DNA from: a virus
Strand: one strand, 5' to 3'
Virus record (IMG/VR): IMGVR_UViG_3300025645_000289
Span: 1-31,325 of that record
DNA: 31,325 nt
Part shown: positions 15,801 through 21,499 of the stretch, piece by piece
How positions within the stretch are numbered: position 1 is the stretch's first letter
Layout of the letters: the number at the start of each line of letters is the position of its first letter
Translations under genes and position numbers: made by a program
Notes under the pieces: model-generated
Told to the model about the DNA's origin: nothing
The model's input: the letters and a program-made list of their open reading frames with translations, nothing else
The model's database searches: none

Positions 15801-16679
15801 TTAGTCCTCTAGTATTGGTCTAAAATGATGACGACAGTTATAGCCGCCCCTTACAATAAACGGATCGCCAGATGCCTTGCCTTTCCAACTACCCGCCCAT
15901 GTTCTCTCTATCTGTTCAGTGGTAAACACCTGATTAACATATTCCCTACAAAACGGCCTTGTATCTCTAACCGTTGTGCCGTAATACTTCCACTTGGTTG
16001 CACCTGACTCTTTACCTATAGCGGTGTTAATAGAAGCATCAAACTGCATCAAGCTATCCTGAGCCATCTGAGTGCTGTAGCGTCTAAGGTTATTACCAAC
16101 CCTATCCCTAGCATATAAGGTATGTAGCTTTTCAACTGCGGCTGCACTCTCTGCCGCATTGCCTGTTCTTGCTATATCAACTAACCGCTGTGCCTCTAAG
16201 TCGTCAGATTGAATGTATACGCCATTTACCGCATGGCGAATGGTCTTTACCGAATCAGCAAACGCTCTGCCCGTAAGGGTATTCTGATAAACCTCAGTCG
16301 CTATGACATCAAGGTACTCATTAGCAATCACCTCGAATCCTTGAAAGGATAACCGCTGTAGTTGGCTAATGACCGCAGGGCTTGCTTTTGTAAAGTCCCC
16401 GTATGTCTTTAGCATCACAGCCGCTTCAGCCGCTACGCCATTGTAGTCCCTTATCATCGCATCAACAGTGGCTAGGTACGTTTCATCAATTGCCAACCTA
16501 ATCTCGTTACGCGCAGATATAGCCCATTCTAAATCGAACAGATTACCATCCTGTAGAGGCGCAGTTGCCATAAGATCAGCAACCTTCTCTTCTAACGTCA
16601 CTAAAGCCGCCTGTAGCCTTTCTTGATGGCTATCGGCTAACTTCTCTAATGCTTCAGAATAAGCCGTATCCGCTGGCAT
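15801..16679 (-). CDS. Minor head protein (Mu gpF / SPP1 gp7-like)
   Basis: This 292-residue protein has a helical N-terminal two thirds and a conserved C-terminal about 60 residues. The latter contain RDTRPFCREYVNQVF, an aromatic and Trp-rich middle (TWAGSWKGK) and GGYNCRHHFRPI. The C and C-x-H-H positions are typical of the Phage_Mu_F head morphogenesis domain. These proteins are packaged in small numbers near the portal and can affect DNA ejection. Order portal, F-like, scaffold, capsid is standard. It starts by TAATG overlap with the portal gene. Confidence 0.88.
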   Translation of the reverse strand: MPADTAYSEALEKLADSHQERLQAALVTLEEKVADLMATAPLQDGNLFDLEWAISARNEIRLAIDETYLATVDAMIRDYNGVAAEAAVMLKTYGDFTKASPAVISQLQRLSFQGFEVIANEYLDVIATEVYQNTLTGRAFADSVKTIRHAVNGVYIQSDDLEAQRLVDIARTGNAAESAAAVEKLHTLYARDRVGNNLRRYSTQMAQDSLMQFDASINTAIGKESGATKWKYYGTTVRDTRPFCREYVNQVFTTEQIERTWAGSWKGKASGDPFIVRGGYNCRHHFRPILED

Positions 16680-18070
16680 TACTCAGCAACATCCTGCTCT
16701 GCAAACTGACCTAATACTTGCGATCCGCTTTCAATTTCAACGTGCGACTGGGCTAATGCCTCATCATCTAGGATTAGATCACTGATCTTCTTATCTATCT
16801 CTTGCATTAGGGTTACTGACTTAACGCCTGTAGAACGCATCTGCTGCAAGAATAGTAGCTCTTTATCGTAGTCACGCAGGTCAAATGCGTCTGGGTAGAA
16901 TATCTCCACATCTGGCGTGACATCCTGCCAATCACAGAACAACACCCAAAGCTGCTCTTCGGCAAGCTCCAGCAAGTCAGCCTTTTCTGATAACTTAGCA
17001 TTCAACATTTGGAACTCGGTCTGCATAGCCACGCCAGACATTACTTGAGCATCAGTCCCGCGTACAGCACCCATATGACTCATGCGATTGATTGACTCCA
17101 CCTTATCGGTTATCGATGCACGAACAGCGTCTAGGTTCTGACCGCTAGGCTGTAACTGGTAAGGTTTTAACTGTGCGTCCATATCATCGGGCAGATTAAT
17201 GATCGCACCAGCACCTGCACTAGCATCTGTTCCATATGATTTAACCAGTGTCGGGTGGTTAGAAATACGGATTAGCTGCTCGATCTCTGATAGCTCCTGA
17301 TAGATAGCTCTTTGCATATAGGACGCATCTGATATGTCACTCAGCCCTATGCCTCTGGTTATCGATCTTTGCGCAGGTAAGAACACCGCAGGGATGCGAC
17401 CCAGTACGTTGTCATCCACTTCAATCATCTTATCTAGGTCATTAACTGAGTGCCATTGCTCTACTCGGTCTTTGTACCAAACGCGGTAGTACGTCTCTGT
17501 GGTGGTCTCATCAACACGGATAACGCTTTCTCTGACCTTTAGATAGTCAAGCTCAAAGCGACCGCTGGGGGTGCGAGCGTAGTTCCAGTCAAGAACATTC
17601 TCAGGAGTGAACATCGTTACATAAGGTCTAATTTCTTGCTCTAGCTCTTCTGCTTTTGTTCCCGCTGTAGACTTAGGCTTATCCATCATTAGCCATACAT
17701 GACCATACACACTAGACCAAATCTGAGCTTCGCGCATAAATGCATCAAAGCTGCGGCCATCAAGATCAGCATCTTTTAAGAAAGAATCAAGGGCCACGTT
17801 ATTGGCTGCGCTGTTATAGGCTCTAGTAGGCGGCACGCGCCAGAGAAAGCTGCTGTAGATATGGACTATATTTTTGCAGTGGTTATCTAACGGGGTCAGA
17901 TCAAGTCTGCGGTCATAGTCATCTGTTGTTTCGGATATGTAGCGCGTGAGGTATGCGCCATTAAAGTAATCTTGCCCACCCATATAGCTGCGAACATAAA
18001 ACTCCCAGCGTGCTTCGTACTTGTCATAATCAGGGTGCGTTGTATCTGCGTTCAATCTCATCAAGTCCAC
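16679..18070 (-). CDS. Portal protein (DUF4055-type)
   Basis: This 463-residue protein starts with a helix and YEARWEFYVRSYMGGQDYF, then LDLTPLDNHCKNIVHIYSSF. VSGVAMQTEFQMLNAKLSEK (about residues 340-365) leads into the long helices of the stem and crown. These features fit the DUF4055/phage_portal family found with Mu F-like proteins. Twelve copies form the DNA channel at one capsid vertex and dock the terminase. The gene lies between terminase and head-protein genes and overlaps the terminase gene by 10 bases. The C-terminal acidic end (SQVLGQFAEQDVAE) is ordinary for portals. Confidence 0.9.
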   Translation of the reverse strand: MDLMRLNADTTHPDYDKYEARWEFYVRSYMGGQDYFNGAYLTRYISETTDDYDRRLDLTPLDNHCKNIVHIYSSFLWRVPPTRAYNSAANNVALDSFLKDADLDGRSFDAFMREAQIWSSVYGHVWLMMDKPKSTAGTKAEELEQEIRPYVTMFTPENVLDWNYARTPSGRFELDYLKVRESVIRVDETTTETYYRVWYKDRVEQWHSVNDLDKMIEVDDNVLGRIPAVFLPAQRSITRGIGLSDISDASYMQRAIYQELSEIEQLIRISNHPTLVKSYGTDASAGAGAIINLPDDMDAQLKPYQLQPSGQNLDAVRASITDKVESINRMSHMGAVRGTDAQVMSGVAMQTEFQMLNAKLSEKADLLELAEEQLWVLFCDWQDVTPDVEIFYPDAFDLRDYDKELLFLQQMRSTGVKSVTLMQEIDKKISDLILDDEALAQSHVEIESGSQVLGQFAEQDVAE

Positions 18071-19275
18071 CTTTGTGGTTGTGGTGTGGCGTATTCAGTG
18101 CGAACTGGGAACAGGTATTCCACTAAGTAGCCGAGGGCATCGTTCATATGATCGTAGCCATCTTCTTTATTGGGAATGCTTGTGCCTTCTTTGTATGTCT
18201 GCCTTTCAAGTGACTTAATCGTCTGCTTGCATTTCGGGCTGATGTACAAATGCCGTTCACCATCACTTGATAGTAAACGACTATTCACAGCGTTGATTCT
18301 ATCCCTGACCAATGCGTGTGAGTTCTTCGCCTTAACGCTAAATCCTGCGTTTTGTAAGATCGACAAATCTGTGCGACCACCAGCAGAGGTTTTCCGCTGT
18401 CTTGATGCTGGGTCTGGATAAACAATTATATTGCGTCTAGGGTAGCGGTCTACTATCTCCGCAACCATTTCATCGGTGTTAGACCCGTACATGACTATCT
18501 CGTCAACGGCAATCAGCGTCCCGCCTTTACGAATACAGATAACGGCAGACATTGGGTCTAAATTGAAGTCCATCCCAATGTGGAGTGTACCACTATCGTC
18601 ATCAATCGCCAATACAGACTCTTCTCGGTTAAACCCATAGTAGATCAGGCCAGCATAGGTTACGAATGCAGCCTCATACTCTTGCTTGAAGGTTCGCTCA
18701 TCTAGGTCTTGACGGGCAGCGTCAATCTCTTCCTGCGGTACGTTGCCACCATCGAGAGTCGTATACTGGAAAGACTCCCAATCCTCTGCGCCATCTTTGC
18801 CTCTAGCCCATAGATCATAGAAGTGATTCCTGCCTTTAGGCGTACCAATAAAAAGCGCACCCCCTTTTCTGTCAGATAGGCTGGGGCGTATAACCTCATA
18901 CCATGCCTCTGGGCGCATATCAGCAAACTCGTCAAGGACAACAAAGTCCAAAGCTCGTCCGCGCAGGTTGTTTGGCTTCTCGGCTCCTTTGAGGCTAATC
19001 ACTGACCCATTGATTAAACGCAGTGTTAGTGAGCTTTCGTTAGTCTTTGATATATACTCATGCGGGATAGTATGGATAAGCATCTGCCAAGCAATCTCTT
19101 TGGCAGACCCGTAGGTAGGCGCTACATACCAAACATTCTTATTCTTGCCTGATACTGCTGCCCTTAACAATGCACCTGTAGATAGGAACGTCTTGCCGAA
19201 TCGTCTGCCAGCCACGACAGAAACAAACCTAGCATTACTAATGAATATTTCAGTCTGAGGTTTGGTTAATTGCAT
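18061..19275 (-). CDS. terL: Terminase large subunit (packaging ATPase-nuclease)
   Basis: This 404-residue protein has both terminase domains. ATPase: Walker A AGRRFGKT at 22-29, Walker B VVLDEFAD at about 112-119 with D115-E116, and a coupling motif FIGTPKGRN at about 142-150. RNase H-like nuclease: GMDFNLDP (D236), an acidic VDEIVMYG region (about 257) and a last metal site DHMNDALGY (D375, D379). It drives DNA into the prohead and cuts the concatemer. It overlaps the small-subunit gene by 26 bases and the portal gene by 10. Packaging type cannot be told from motifs alone. Confidence 0.96.
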   Translation of the reverse strand: MQLTKPQTEIFISNARFVSVVAGRRFGKTFLSTGALLRAAVSGKNKNVWYVAPTYGSAKEIAWQMLIHTIPHEYISKTNESSLTLRLINGSVISLKGAEKPNNLRGRALDFVVLDEFADMRPEAWYEVIRPSLSDRKGGALFIGTPKGRNHFYDLWARGKDGAEDWESFQYTTLDGGNVPQEEIDAARQDLDERTFKQEYEAAFVTYAGLIYYGFNREESVLAIDDDSGTLHIGMDFNLDPMSAVICIRKGGTLIAVDEIVMYGSNTDEMVAEIVDRYPRRNIIVYPDPASRQRKTSAGGRTDLSILQNAGFSVKAKNSHALVRDRINAVNSRLLSSDGERHLYISPKCKQTIKSLERQTYKEGTSIPNKEDGYDHMNDALGYLVEYLFPVRTEYATPQPQRWT

Positions 19276-19630
19276 TGTTGTCTAAAATAATATTAATCGG
19301 GGGTATCTCTTGAACCTCTGCTTCCTGCTCTTTCCAGCCAGCTTGGGTTTTTAGATAAAAGATGTTAGCCGCCACGTTACCCTTTTTGGCTAATTGTATA
19401 AGGTTAGACCCCATACTAGCGCACTGTTTAACCCTGCCTTTTTTATAAGCGTCAGAAACTTCAGGCTGTCTTTCCTCTATAGCCCGCAAGGTTGTTTCGG
19501 AAATGCTAAAGTAATCAGCGATCTGGCCTTTAGTAAGCACAGCGGCCAATGCTTCAAGTTGGGTTATTTGCTCTGGCGTAAACTCAATAATAGGTCTACC
19601 GCCACCATCACCTTGATTACCTATCTTCAT
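19250..19630 (-). CDS. terS: Terminase small subunit
   Basis: This 126-residue protein has an N-terminal helix-turn-helix. FTPEQITQLEALAAVLTKGQ leads into IADYFSISETTLRAIEERQP, which reads as a homeodomain-like recognition unit for the packaging site. A helical oligomerisation part (KGRVKQCASMGSNLIQLAKK) and a flexible end follow. The central GNVAANIFYLKTQAGWKE is a very common small-terminase motif. It comes directly before the large subunit with an overlapping start and two bases after the ABC-GNAT gene. Confidence 0.87.
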   Translation of the reverse strand: MKIGNQGDGGGRPIIEFTPEQITQLEALAAVLTKGQIADYFSISETTLRAIEERQPEVSDAYKKGRVKQCASMGSNLIQLAKKGNVAANIFYLKTQAGWKEQEAEVQEIPPINIILDNNAINQTSD

Positions 19631-19632
19631 AA

Positions 19633-20724
19633 TTATCCTACAAATTCAAATGATGCAGTTAATCTATCAGCTGAAACCTTTTTTCTAATTGCCGTGACCC
19701 CAGAAATACTTTCATGTGCAGCTGTTCTGCCGACTGATACTCTACTTGGCTTTCTAGCCATGATCCAATTTTTAGATGATTGTAATCCATGTATAAAATT
19801 AGGTGCTGATGTAACTAATCTAACTCTAAATCCATTATTTTTATATTGTTTAGCCATTTCAGACATAAATCTACCACCTAAACCTATACCTTGATAATCA
19901 GGTTTGACAACAATTCTATGTATTCTTTTAAAATTCTTTACTTTTGGATGAGGAAAATGCAAAAAACTACACCATGCTACAGGTTCACCACCTATTTCAG
20001 CTATATATTTATGCGCAGCATTATGATGATCTGCACTTAAATAATGAAACTCTTTAAATAATTCCCATTCTTTTCCTGATGCTTTTCTGATTTTAACCTC
20101 AATATCGGGTCGCCTAAGTGACCTCCGATAAAATTGTTTTTCATTGGCATCATATACCCAATTTGGCTCTAACCATTCCTCAATATCATAATGACAAGAT
20201 ACCGCTATAAATTGTTTGTTTTCTCGTCTAATATATTTTTGAATTGCTGCACTACCTATTTTGGCAACTTGACGATCTACAACTGATGTAAATTCATCAT
20301 AAAGAATGGGTTTATCCGATTCTAAAATGATTCGTGCTAATTCGGCTCTCATTTTTTGACCATTAGATAAAACACTAAATGGCTTCAGCCAGTCTGGAGG
20401 ACTAGAAAATCCCACTTTGCTTAATGCTTCAGTAATTTGCTTTGGCGATAAATTTTCTGCAAAATCATCTATTACCGTTCTATCAGTCCATTCAAACCCA
20501 TTAAATAATTCGAAGTCTTTAAATACATTCTTTGCTATTGTAGTTTTACCTGAACCAGAAGCACCAACAATTAACCCTATATTCCAATCCATATCTTCAA
20601 TAGGAATATTGATATCAAATTCTTTGCGAACAACAGATGTGTCATAATCAAATTGCCCCTTTACTTTTTCCACTCTAAAAGACGATGGTATTTTGCTTTC
20701 TATTACAAACTTTGAACTTGGCAT
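19633..20724 (-). CDS. ABC ATPase fused to a GNAT acyltransferase (COG2401-like); candidate DNA-modification protein
   Basis: This is a 363-residue two-domain protein. The ABC ATPase (about 20-205) is complete: Walker A GASGSGKTT (54-62), signature LSNGQ (119-123), Walker B ILYDE (140-144), D-loop SVVD (147-150) and switch His178. The GNAT domain (about 208-363) has FHYLS (226-230), a strand pair at 239-256 and the CoA loop QGIGLG (278-283). There is no membrane segment, so it is not a transporter. The build matches COG2401, an ABC ATPase joined to a predicted acetyltransferase. The DNA is visibly more AT-rich than its neighbours (17 and 20 G+C per 60 bases at 20041-20100 and 20521-20580, against 30-31 at 18061-18120 and 18721-18780). 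It overlaps the ParB-like gene by 22 bases. Role in DNA modification is inference. Confidence 0.85.
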   Translation of the reverse strand: MPSSKFVIESKIPSSFRVEKVKGQFDYDTSVVRKEFDINIPIEDMDWNIGLIVGASGSGKTTIAKNVFKDFELFNGFEWTDRTVIDDFAENLSPKQITEALSKVGFSSPPDWLKPFSVLSNGQKMRAELARIILESDKPILYDEFTSVVDRQVAKIGSAAIQKYIRRENKQFIAVSCHYDIEEWLEPNWVYDANEKQFYRRSLRRPDIEVKIRKASGKEWELFKEFHYLSADHHNAAHKYIAEIGGEPVAWCSFLHFPHPKVKNFKRIHRIVVKPDYQGIGLGGRFMSEMAKQYKNNGFRVRLVTSAPNFIHGLQSSKNWIMARKPSRVSVGRTAAHESISGVTAIRKKVSADRLTASFEFVG

Positions 20725-21245
20725 GAATACCCCTTCTCTAATAATTCATTATAGACCCTTTCCTGATGACCTTCGTTTTCACAGCTAACAATAATGTTAA
20801 ATACCTCATAATATGATTCTTCTTTTAAATCGCCAGAATCTTCAGATAATCCATCAATAATGTTCGCTAATTCCTGATCATCAAACCCCAATAACGATAA
20901 ATCTATATTTTGCGCTATATTTTCTACTTCTATTTTTAATAACTCATAATCCCAGTCAGCATTTAAAGCTAATTTATTATCAGCTATAACATATGCCTTT
21001 CTCTGGGCCTCTGTAAAGCCCTTTAAGGCAATTGTCGGCACCTTATCCATACCTAGCAGTTGTGCAGCTTGTAGCCGCCCATGCCCTGCTATAATGCCGT
21101 TATCCTCGTCTATAAGGATTGGGTTAGTAAAGCCGAACTCTTTTATACTGGCAGCGACTTGCTGTACTTGTTTCTCGCTGTGCGTTCTTGAGTTATTAGA
21201 ATAAGGGATTAGTTCCCCTGTTTGCTTCCATTCAATAGACTCCAT
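20703..21245 (-). CDS. ParB/sulfiredoxin-fold domain protein
   Basis: In this 180-residue protein residues about 10-80 form a ParB N-terminal-like domain. LIPYSNNSRTHSEKQVQQVA is followed by SIKEFGFTNPILIDEDNGII and AGHGRLQAAQLLGMDKVP; GHGR corresponds to the GxRR/GHGR phosphate-binding motif. Residues about 85-180 carry the IADNKLAL extension seen in phage ParB proteins linked to DNA methylases, and a short C-terminal domain (FNIIVSCENEGHQERVYNEL). No methyltransferase motifs are present. The domain can bind or hydrolyse nucleotides or load on DNA. Coupling with the ABC-GNAT gene suggests both work on DNA together. It starts by TAATG overlap with the acidic protein upstream. Confidence 0.82.
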   Translation of the reverse strand: MESIEWKQTGELIPYSNNSRTHSEKQVQQVAASIKEFGFTNPILIDEDNGIIAGHGRLQAAQLLGMDKVPTIALKGFTEAQRKAYVIADNKLALNADWDYELLKIEVENIAQNIDLSLLGFDDQELANIIDGLSEDSGDLKEESYYEVFNIIVSCENEGHQERVYNELLEKGYSCQVQSL

Positions 21246-21499
21246 TATTGCTCCGTCCCGAATATCTCTTCTGCCATTGCTGCAAACTCCCTGAACCCTT
21301 CGTAAGGCTCAAACTCTGAAAGCTCATCGACCATGTTAGCAACGCCATCTTGCCAGTCAATAAGCTCTTCTCTGATCTTATGTCTTGGAACATCAGTGGT
21401 CATTAATGATTCAATAATCGCATCGAAGCGAATTATCTCGTCATTTAATTCCCAATCAAAGCAATCTTCAAGTGATTTAGTTAGGTTTAGGCTATCCAT
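21245..21499 (-). CDS. Small acidic protein, unknown
   Basis: I do not recognise this 84-residue protein. It is strongly acidic (DCFDWELNDEIIRFD, DELSEFEPYEGF) and helical in character, with no membrane segment and no metal motif. The ribosome-binding site is AGGGG ten bases before the ATG. Its stop overlaps the ParB-like start, so it belongs to the same transcript as the ParB and ABC-GNAT genes. It may be a DNA mimic or a partner protein of them. Both ideas are inference from charge and position. Confidence 0.62.
   Translation of the reverse strand: MDSLNLTKSLEDCFDWELNDEIIRFDAIIESLMTTDVPRHKIREELIDWQDGVANMVDELSEFEPYEGFREFAAMAEEIFGTEQ

Follow-up and report, generated by a model that had tools for sequence, protein, structure and literature searches.

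A ParB-domain protein and an ABC ATPase-GNAT fusion as a candidate phage DNA-base modification system in an exchangeable slot before the terminase genes

Acylation of a DNA base by a GNAT enzyme working with an ABC ATPase was predicted by Iyer et al. in 2013 and restated in 2021 for jumbo phages, with pT24 as an example (PMC7824862); the cited passage leaves the acyl group unspecified. Other described systems share parts of this design. Mom of phage Mu (PF25680; structure 8bv8) is a GNAT-type phage enzyme, ParB domains are fused to N6/N4 DNA methyltransferases (phrog_498), and the ParB-like ATPase DpdB is the partner of DpdA when deazaguanine is inserted (PMC12839542). According to a metagenomic study of cryoconite phages, a variable region has ParB next to the terminase, and one variant carries an acetyltransferase where others carry DNA methyltransferases (PMC7468147). 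The paper on the "unknown DNA modification" of Klebsiella KP15/KP27 names no ABC-GNAT (PMC5219037). A 2025 study states that the precise role of ParB domains beside phage DNA-modification genes is unknown (PMC12783734).

The locus and its relation to described systems

The DNA analyzed here (the window) is a virus sequence of 31,325 bases. Its cassette is transcribed in the order 84-aa gene, ParB-domain gene, ABC ATPase-GNAT, terS, terL, and portal, all on the minus strand (Table 1). The ABC-GNAT and ParB reading frames overlap by 22 bases (20703-20724), and a gap of two bases separates the end of ABC-GNAT from terS; this arrangement, with all of the coordinates and motifs given in the preliminary description, was reproduced. 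That description, which cited Mom as a GNAT-fold enzyme that modifies DNA, took the two proteins to load on DNA and to acylate a base, or to mark DNA or protein for packaging, in either case protecting the genome from host restriction. DNA modification with a ParB partner is supported by the slot and neighborhood data presented below; kinship with Mom and a packaging mark are not.

Table 1. Features of the cassette and its borders in the window
Feature	Position	Strand	Remarks
ABC ATPase-GNAT fusion, 363 aa	19633..20724	-	Predicted DNA-base acyltransferase; phrog_11143; model pLDDT 87
ABC ATPase domain, residues 1 to ~200	20125..20724	-	Walker A, signature, Walker B, H-loop
GNAT domain, residues ~206-363	19636..20109	-	F223, HYL 227-229, R270, PDYQGxGxG 275-283, W320
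ParB-domain protein, 180 aa	20703..21245	-	Predicted DNA adaptor; without HTH domain match
ParB N-terminal domain, constant part	20950..21245	-	Homologous in sister phages with other modification enzymes (blastn breakpoints)
ParB C-terminal tail, ~residues 143-180	20703..20819	-	Specific to ABC-GNAT partners (cross-trained profiles)
Exchanged segment, ParB tail + enzyme	19631..20950	-	In sisters: ParB tail + Mom, MTase, or TET/TAGT genes
84-aa gene, no assigned function	21245..21499	-	Upstream border; abuts terS directly where the site is empty
terS (terminase small subunit)	19250..19630	-	Downstream border; homology resumes at start codon
terL (terminase large subunit)	18061..19275	-	Neutral seed for sister phages
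Portal	16679..18070	-	Pfam portal 5.9e-10

The window protein belongs to the family of the predicted system: it has the same domains and matches the pT24 protein at 38% identity (tblastn, E 2e-50). Beyond the cited prediction, our analysis adds exchange of enzymes in a genomic slot, specificity of the ParB tail, a natural ParB fusion, and PanD/CoA-transferase and formyltransferase partners; part of this may stand in Iyer et al. 2013.

Mom and ABC-GNAT both show an HY motif early in the GNAT domain and, in sister phages, occupy the same slot beside ParB. Mom, however, has neither an ABC domain nor a canonical QxxGxG CoA loop, and the family link did not hold up: Pfam gave no Mom match (E ≤ 0.1), and hhalign returned a probability of 0.2% (E 0.31), while the Mom profile scored Mu Mom itself at 2e-75 (PF25680). 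The structural matches listed for the GNAT half do not include Mom (8bv8). ABC-GNAT thus probably works like Mom in purpose, yet by the tests run it is no member of the Mom family. The ParB-N6/N4 methyltransferase fusions share with the window a closely similar ParB N-terminal domain, a DNA enzyme, and the same slot, but they use SAM for methylation where acylation is predicted here, and they carry the enzyme on the ParB chain itself, whereas here the following gene encodes it. The existence of such fusions accounts for the weak similarity of the window ParB to MTase_II in PADLOC, where the ABC domain also weakly resembles mad3. DpdB/DpdA likewise combines a ParB-like protein with a base-modifying enzyme (7-deazaguanine); enzyme and chemistry differ from those of ABC-GNAT.

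The ABC-GNAT protein and its ParB neighbor

The fusion combines ABC motifs (Walker A GASGSGKTT, residues 54-62; LSNGQ, 119-123; ILYDE, 140-144; His178) with GNAT motifs (FHYLS, 226-230; CoA loop QGIGLG, 278-283). Pfam matches on the cassette comprise ABC_tran (1.1e-8), Acetyltransf_1 (1.2e-10), and ParB_N (2.4e-7), with Terminase_6N (1e-15) for the terminase; the full 363 aa match phrog_11143, which carries no functional label, at 2e-102. Across 238 homologues, G54, G57, G59, K60, S120, G122, D143, E144, and H178 of the ABC half and Y228, R270, P275, G279, and W320 of the GNAT half do not vary, and H227 is present in 237. These features are thus not due to chance and, since the conservation includes the catalytic residues, both halves look catalytically active. 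In the confident AlphaFold model, which has two domains (pLDDT 87, pTM 0.78), the ABC half folds as an ABC ATPase (VIA, Z 15.7) and the GNAT half as RimI-like acetyltransferases (Z ~15), closer to protein N-acetyltransferases such as RimI than to any nucleic-acid enzyme among the matches listed. We rejected an ABC transporter ATPase: transporter profiles match through the ABC domain only, far below cut-offs, and in the window no permease is encoded with or fused to this domain, which is joined to GNAT and has ParB and terS as neighbors.

Megablast of the window found no near-identical reference phage. The best ABC-GNAT match by tblastn (66%) is in Pseudoalteromonas phage SL25, whose GenBank record leaves the gene (L001:6001-7068) unannotated, in a gap that immediately precedes the large terminase gene. 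The annotation of Streptococcus, Lactococcus, and Oenococcus phages (L002, L085, L086) splits ABC and GNAT into two genes that are adjacent or overlap slightly. In Rhizobium phage RHEph10, a Tad2-like gene (anti-Thoeris 2-like, PF11195; L099:4609-4911) lies between separate ABC ATPase and GNAT-like genes, in a region that adjoins two ParB genes.

The family is widespread. Tblastn matched 78 phage records, 47 of them covering ≥80% of the query, with hosts that include Lactococcus, Gordonia, Porphyromonas, Aeromonas, and Leptospira; at least 590 IMG/VR contigs carry ABC-GNAT, and a search of genomes from 84,980 species yielded 425 loci, the best 80 of which come mainly from Planctomycetes and Actinobacteria. 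ParB adjoins ABC-GNAT in 148 of 155 distinct IMG/VR loci and in 73 of 79 loci from bacterial genomes. No ParB was found nearby in the other 7 and 6 loci, some of which end at a contig edge; phage loci of this kind include PX29 and Nonlabens. Because terminase or portal genes are recognizable in 43 of the 60 cellular loci whose downstream sequence is long enough, most cellular loci are prophages. A family usually found without ParB and outside phages, the outcome that the preliminary description had named as contrary to its reading, is therefore not what the survey returned. The order ParB, ABC-GNAT, terminase is also kept where the terminases show no detectable similarity to that of the window, for example in Streptococcus, Pasteurella, and Planctomycetes, and in a Gemmataceae locus ParB and ABC-GNAT form a single open reading frame, a natural fusion.

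Exchange of enzymes and ParB tails in sister phages

To avoid choosing by content, sister phages were picked among IMG/VR contigs by TerL similarity alone, and the region just upstream of terS was scored in 46 non-duplicate loci with ≥2.3 kb upstream. Slot classes were assigned by homology (iterative profiles) to a few Pfam-checked representatives. Kinship among the sampled loci means that their slot counts are not independent. The slot is empty in 18 of the 46, and the 28 filled slots hold ABC-GNAT (4), a ParB-DNA methyltransferase fusion (6), Mom (4), TET/JBP with a TET-associated glycosyltransferase (7), TET/JBP alone (5), or a glycosyltransferase with an epimerase (2). At 15 of the 18 empty sites, those in which the 84-aa gene was recognized, this gene lies directly against terS. 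ParB is within range in 26 of the 28 filled slots, and in none of the 46 loci does ABC-GNAT occur together with another enzyme class. The slot representatives matched Pfam Mom (9.5e-44), TAGT (5e-15 and 4e-40), and N6_N4_Mtase (1e-25) with ParB_N; the Tet_JBP representative, at 2.6e-7, falls below the Pfam cut-off (30.5 versus 34.9 bits).

These exchanges are recent, since phages with near-identical TerL carry different enzymes: one sister with a TerL 99.3% identical to that of the window (L276) nevertheless has Mom in its slot, and another, at 98.8% (L277), has the ParB-methyltransferase. In a third (L292; TerL 90.8%), the ABC-GNAT shares just 34% identity with that of the window, so ABC-GNAT entered the slot at least twice.

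Some sister loci deserve separate mention. Three (L325, L343, L401) combine the TET-associated glycosyltransferase with a nucleotide-sugar epimerase, which suggests a sugar-modified base. A TET/JBP-like protein (L375:5997-6830) matches phrog_6059, labeled queuine tRNA-ribosyltransferase; its Pfam match is Tet_JBP, which makes this label look mistaken. In two loci with an empty site (L288, L301), the start of terS is unalignable at the DNA level with window positions 19315-19630, and the remaining terminase region is 86-90% identical.

A slot of the same kind is found in an unrelated lineage, the Gordonia Sourvirus phages, in which gp1 is a ParB and exchanged genes lie between gp1 and the terminase. 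The slot holds ABC-GNAT with a formyltransferase-like protein in Ligma and NHagos, queuosine-type genes in Sour, and TET/JBP-type genes in CaiB, whose operon has been published as nucleotide modification (PMC9302106).

The borders of the exchanged unit fall within ParB and at terS. In blastn comparisons of the window with its sisters, homology crosses the 84-aa gene into ParB, ends at 20950-20920 (ParB residue ~98-108, just past the Pfam ParB_N match at residues 20-82), and restarts at 19631/19630, where terS begins with its ATG start codon. From these positions, the exchanged unit is the ParB tail plus the enzyme, and the ParB domain is constant. That domain contains the GxxR motif, matches Spo0J and ParB structures, and has conserved G54, R57, and A60. 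A classical ParB partition protein was considered and rejected: ParB_N is the only domain in the 180 aa, where neither the HTH (parS-binding) nor the C-terminal dimerization domain was found, and the tail is instead a segment peculiar to ParBs with ABC-GNAT partners.

Profiles of the distal tail (the last ~35 residues) separate ParBs by partner; a profile including the shared segment beside the ParB domain was unspecific. Trained on cellular ABC-GNAT loci, the tail profile recognized 127/127 IMG/VR and 9/10 phage ParBs linked to ABC-GNAT and 0/53 of those linked to methyltransferase, Mom, or TET/TAGT. The reverse profile, trained on the clade of the window, found 67/68 cellular ABC-GNAT loci and 0/53 other ParBs. 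This specificity, together with the natural ParB-ABC-GNAT fusion, makes a docking role of the tail likely. Most Mom-linked ParBs have a different, zinc-ribbon-like end, CPHCGKEF or CPKCGHEF (L276, L278, L306, L371, L388, L411).

Because the 24 slots filled by something other than ABC-GNAT all contain DNA-modification enzymes, DNA modification by ABC-GNAT is very likely as well. Our best explanation is that the ParB and ABC-GNAT pair is probably a phage DNA-base modification system, in which ParB would serve as adaptor and ABC-GNAT as the acylating enzyme. Acetylation of a protein instead (host RNA polymerase, a ribosomal protein, or terminase), by a GNAT with a regulatory ABC domain in a general counter-defense slot, seems unlikely. 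It would suit the top structural neighbors, which are N-terminal protein acetyltransferases, RimI among them (Z ~14-15), and phage GNATs that modify host proteins are known (PMC7824862), but every one of the 24 other filled slots belongs to a DNA-base-modifying class, with no general counter-defense gene among them, and ParB partners nearly all of the slot enzymes. RNA is a highly improbable target. The comparison that raises it is with TmcA, the tRNA(Met) cytidine acetyltransferase, in which an ATPase is likewise joined to a GNAT acting on a nucleobase, at a base amine, and which ranks 10th in Foldseek for the full model (2zpa); the alignment, however, is loose (TM 0.30, rmsd 13), TmcA has a helicase-type ATPase and an RNA substrate, the slot is shared with DNA-modifying enzymes, and the partner protein has a ParB domain, not an RNA-binding one. 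That the pair marks or organizes DNA for packaging by the adjacent terminase, as the preliminary description had offered and as the position just upstream of terS/terL here and in Streptococcus, Pasteurella, Leptospira, and Gordonia phages might suggest, is scarcely credible and was not borne out, given that the site is empty in 18 sisters with closely similar terminases, that known modification enzymes, plain methyltransferases and Mom, take the same place, and that several ABC-GNAT phages have no annotated terminase within ~4-5 kb.

Candidate acyl donors and the proposed reaction

Partner genes give a hint of the acyl donor. In Gordonia/Rhodococcus phage Jace, ABC-GNAT is followed by an aspartate decarboxylase (PanD; PF02261, 2e-33) and a family III CoA-transferase (PF02515, 2e-8). 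Viewed from the CoA-transferase side, ABC-GNAT lies directly upstream in 33/33 IMG/VR loci with upstream room, 27 of which also have PanD; four more loci end at a contig edge. Counted by non-identical ABC-GNAT sequence, the CoA-transferase-linked set comprises 25 IMG/VR loci. Most of the linked loci group in a single clade of the ABC-GNAT tree, to which a Gemmataceae pair from one assembly is to be added. The GS cleavage site of PanD is kept in the four full-length copies and the GDT motif of the CoA-transferase is invariant; we take both to be catalytic elements. These associations suggest beta-alanyl-CoA, made from aspartate via beta-alanine, as the donor in this branch; an alternative order, with decarboxylation after transfer, is possible. 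A search for literature linking PanD or the CoA-transferase with ABC-GNAT returned nothing relevant. Several IMG/VR loci (L433-L438, L441) have a second ABC-GNAT ~0.6 kb after the CoA-transferase start, such that two divergent ABC-GNATs flank PanD and the CoA-transferase in one operon.

A Formyl_trans_N protein directly follows ABC-GNAT in a separate clade (Gordonia Sourvirus, Pseudomonas Komp_PAO1_1, Porphyromonas prophages). A formyltransferase as universal partner was rejected: three faecal phage records with relatives show no ABC-GNAT nearby, and the association is thus limited to one clade. None of the three genes, PanD, CoA-transferase, or formyltransferase, is present in the window, so its phage would use host acyl-CoA. 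The acyl donor appears, from gene content, to vary by lineage.

In the reaction that we propose, the ParB N-terminal domain would contact phage DNA while its C-terminal tail, judging by its specificity and the one natural fusion, would dock the dedicated enzyme. The ABC ATPase would be expected to dimerize on ATP and to grip or distort the DNA, and GNAT would take the acyl group from CoA and attach it to a nucleobase, the probable site being an exocyclic amine; the resulting bulky base would block host nucleases. One branch may supply its own donor, with PanD converting aspartate to beta-alanine and the CoA-transferase yielding the acyl-CoA, and another may add a formyltransferase. A broader reading can be advanced tentatively: ParB would be an exchangeable platform, a single domain in contact with DNA that bears docking tails specific to each enzyme (methyltransferase, Mom, TET/JBP-glycosyltransferase, ABC-GNAT), and ABC-GNAT would produce a previously undescribed class of aminoacylated bases, with beta-alanyl-CoA from the phage PanD and CoA-transferase as donor in one lineage and possibly N-formylated by a phage formyltransferase in another.

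Since the ParB domain stays constant while tail and enzyme are exchanged jointly, the role of ParB beside phage DNA-modification genes becomes directly testable. If the predicted chemistry holds, the widespread phrog_11143 would aminoacylate bases in DNA, from a donor that can be specifically predicted for one branch, and phages would possess a new anti-restriction chemistry that may also provide enzymes for DNA labeling.
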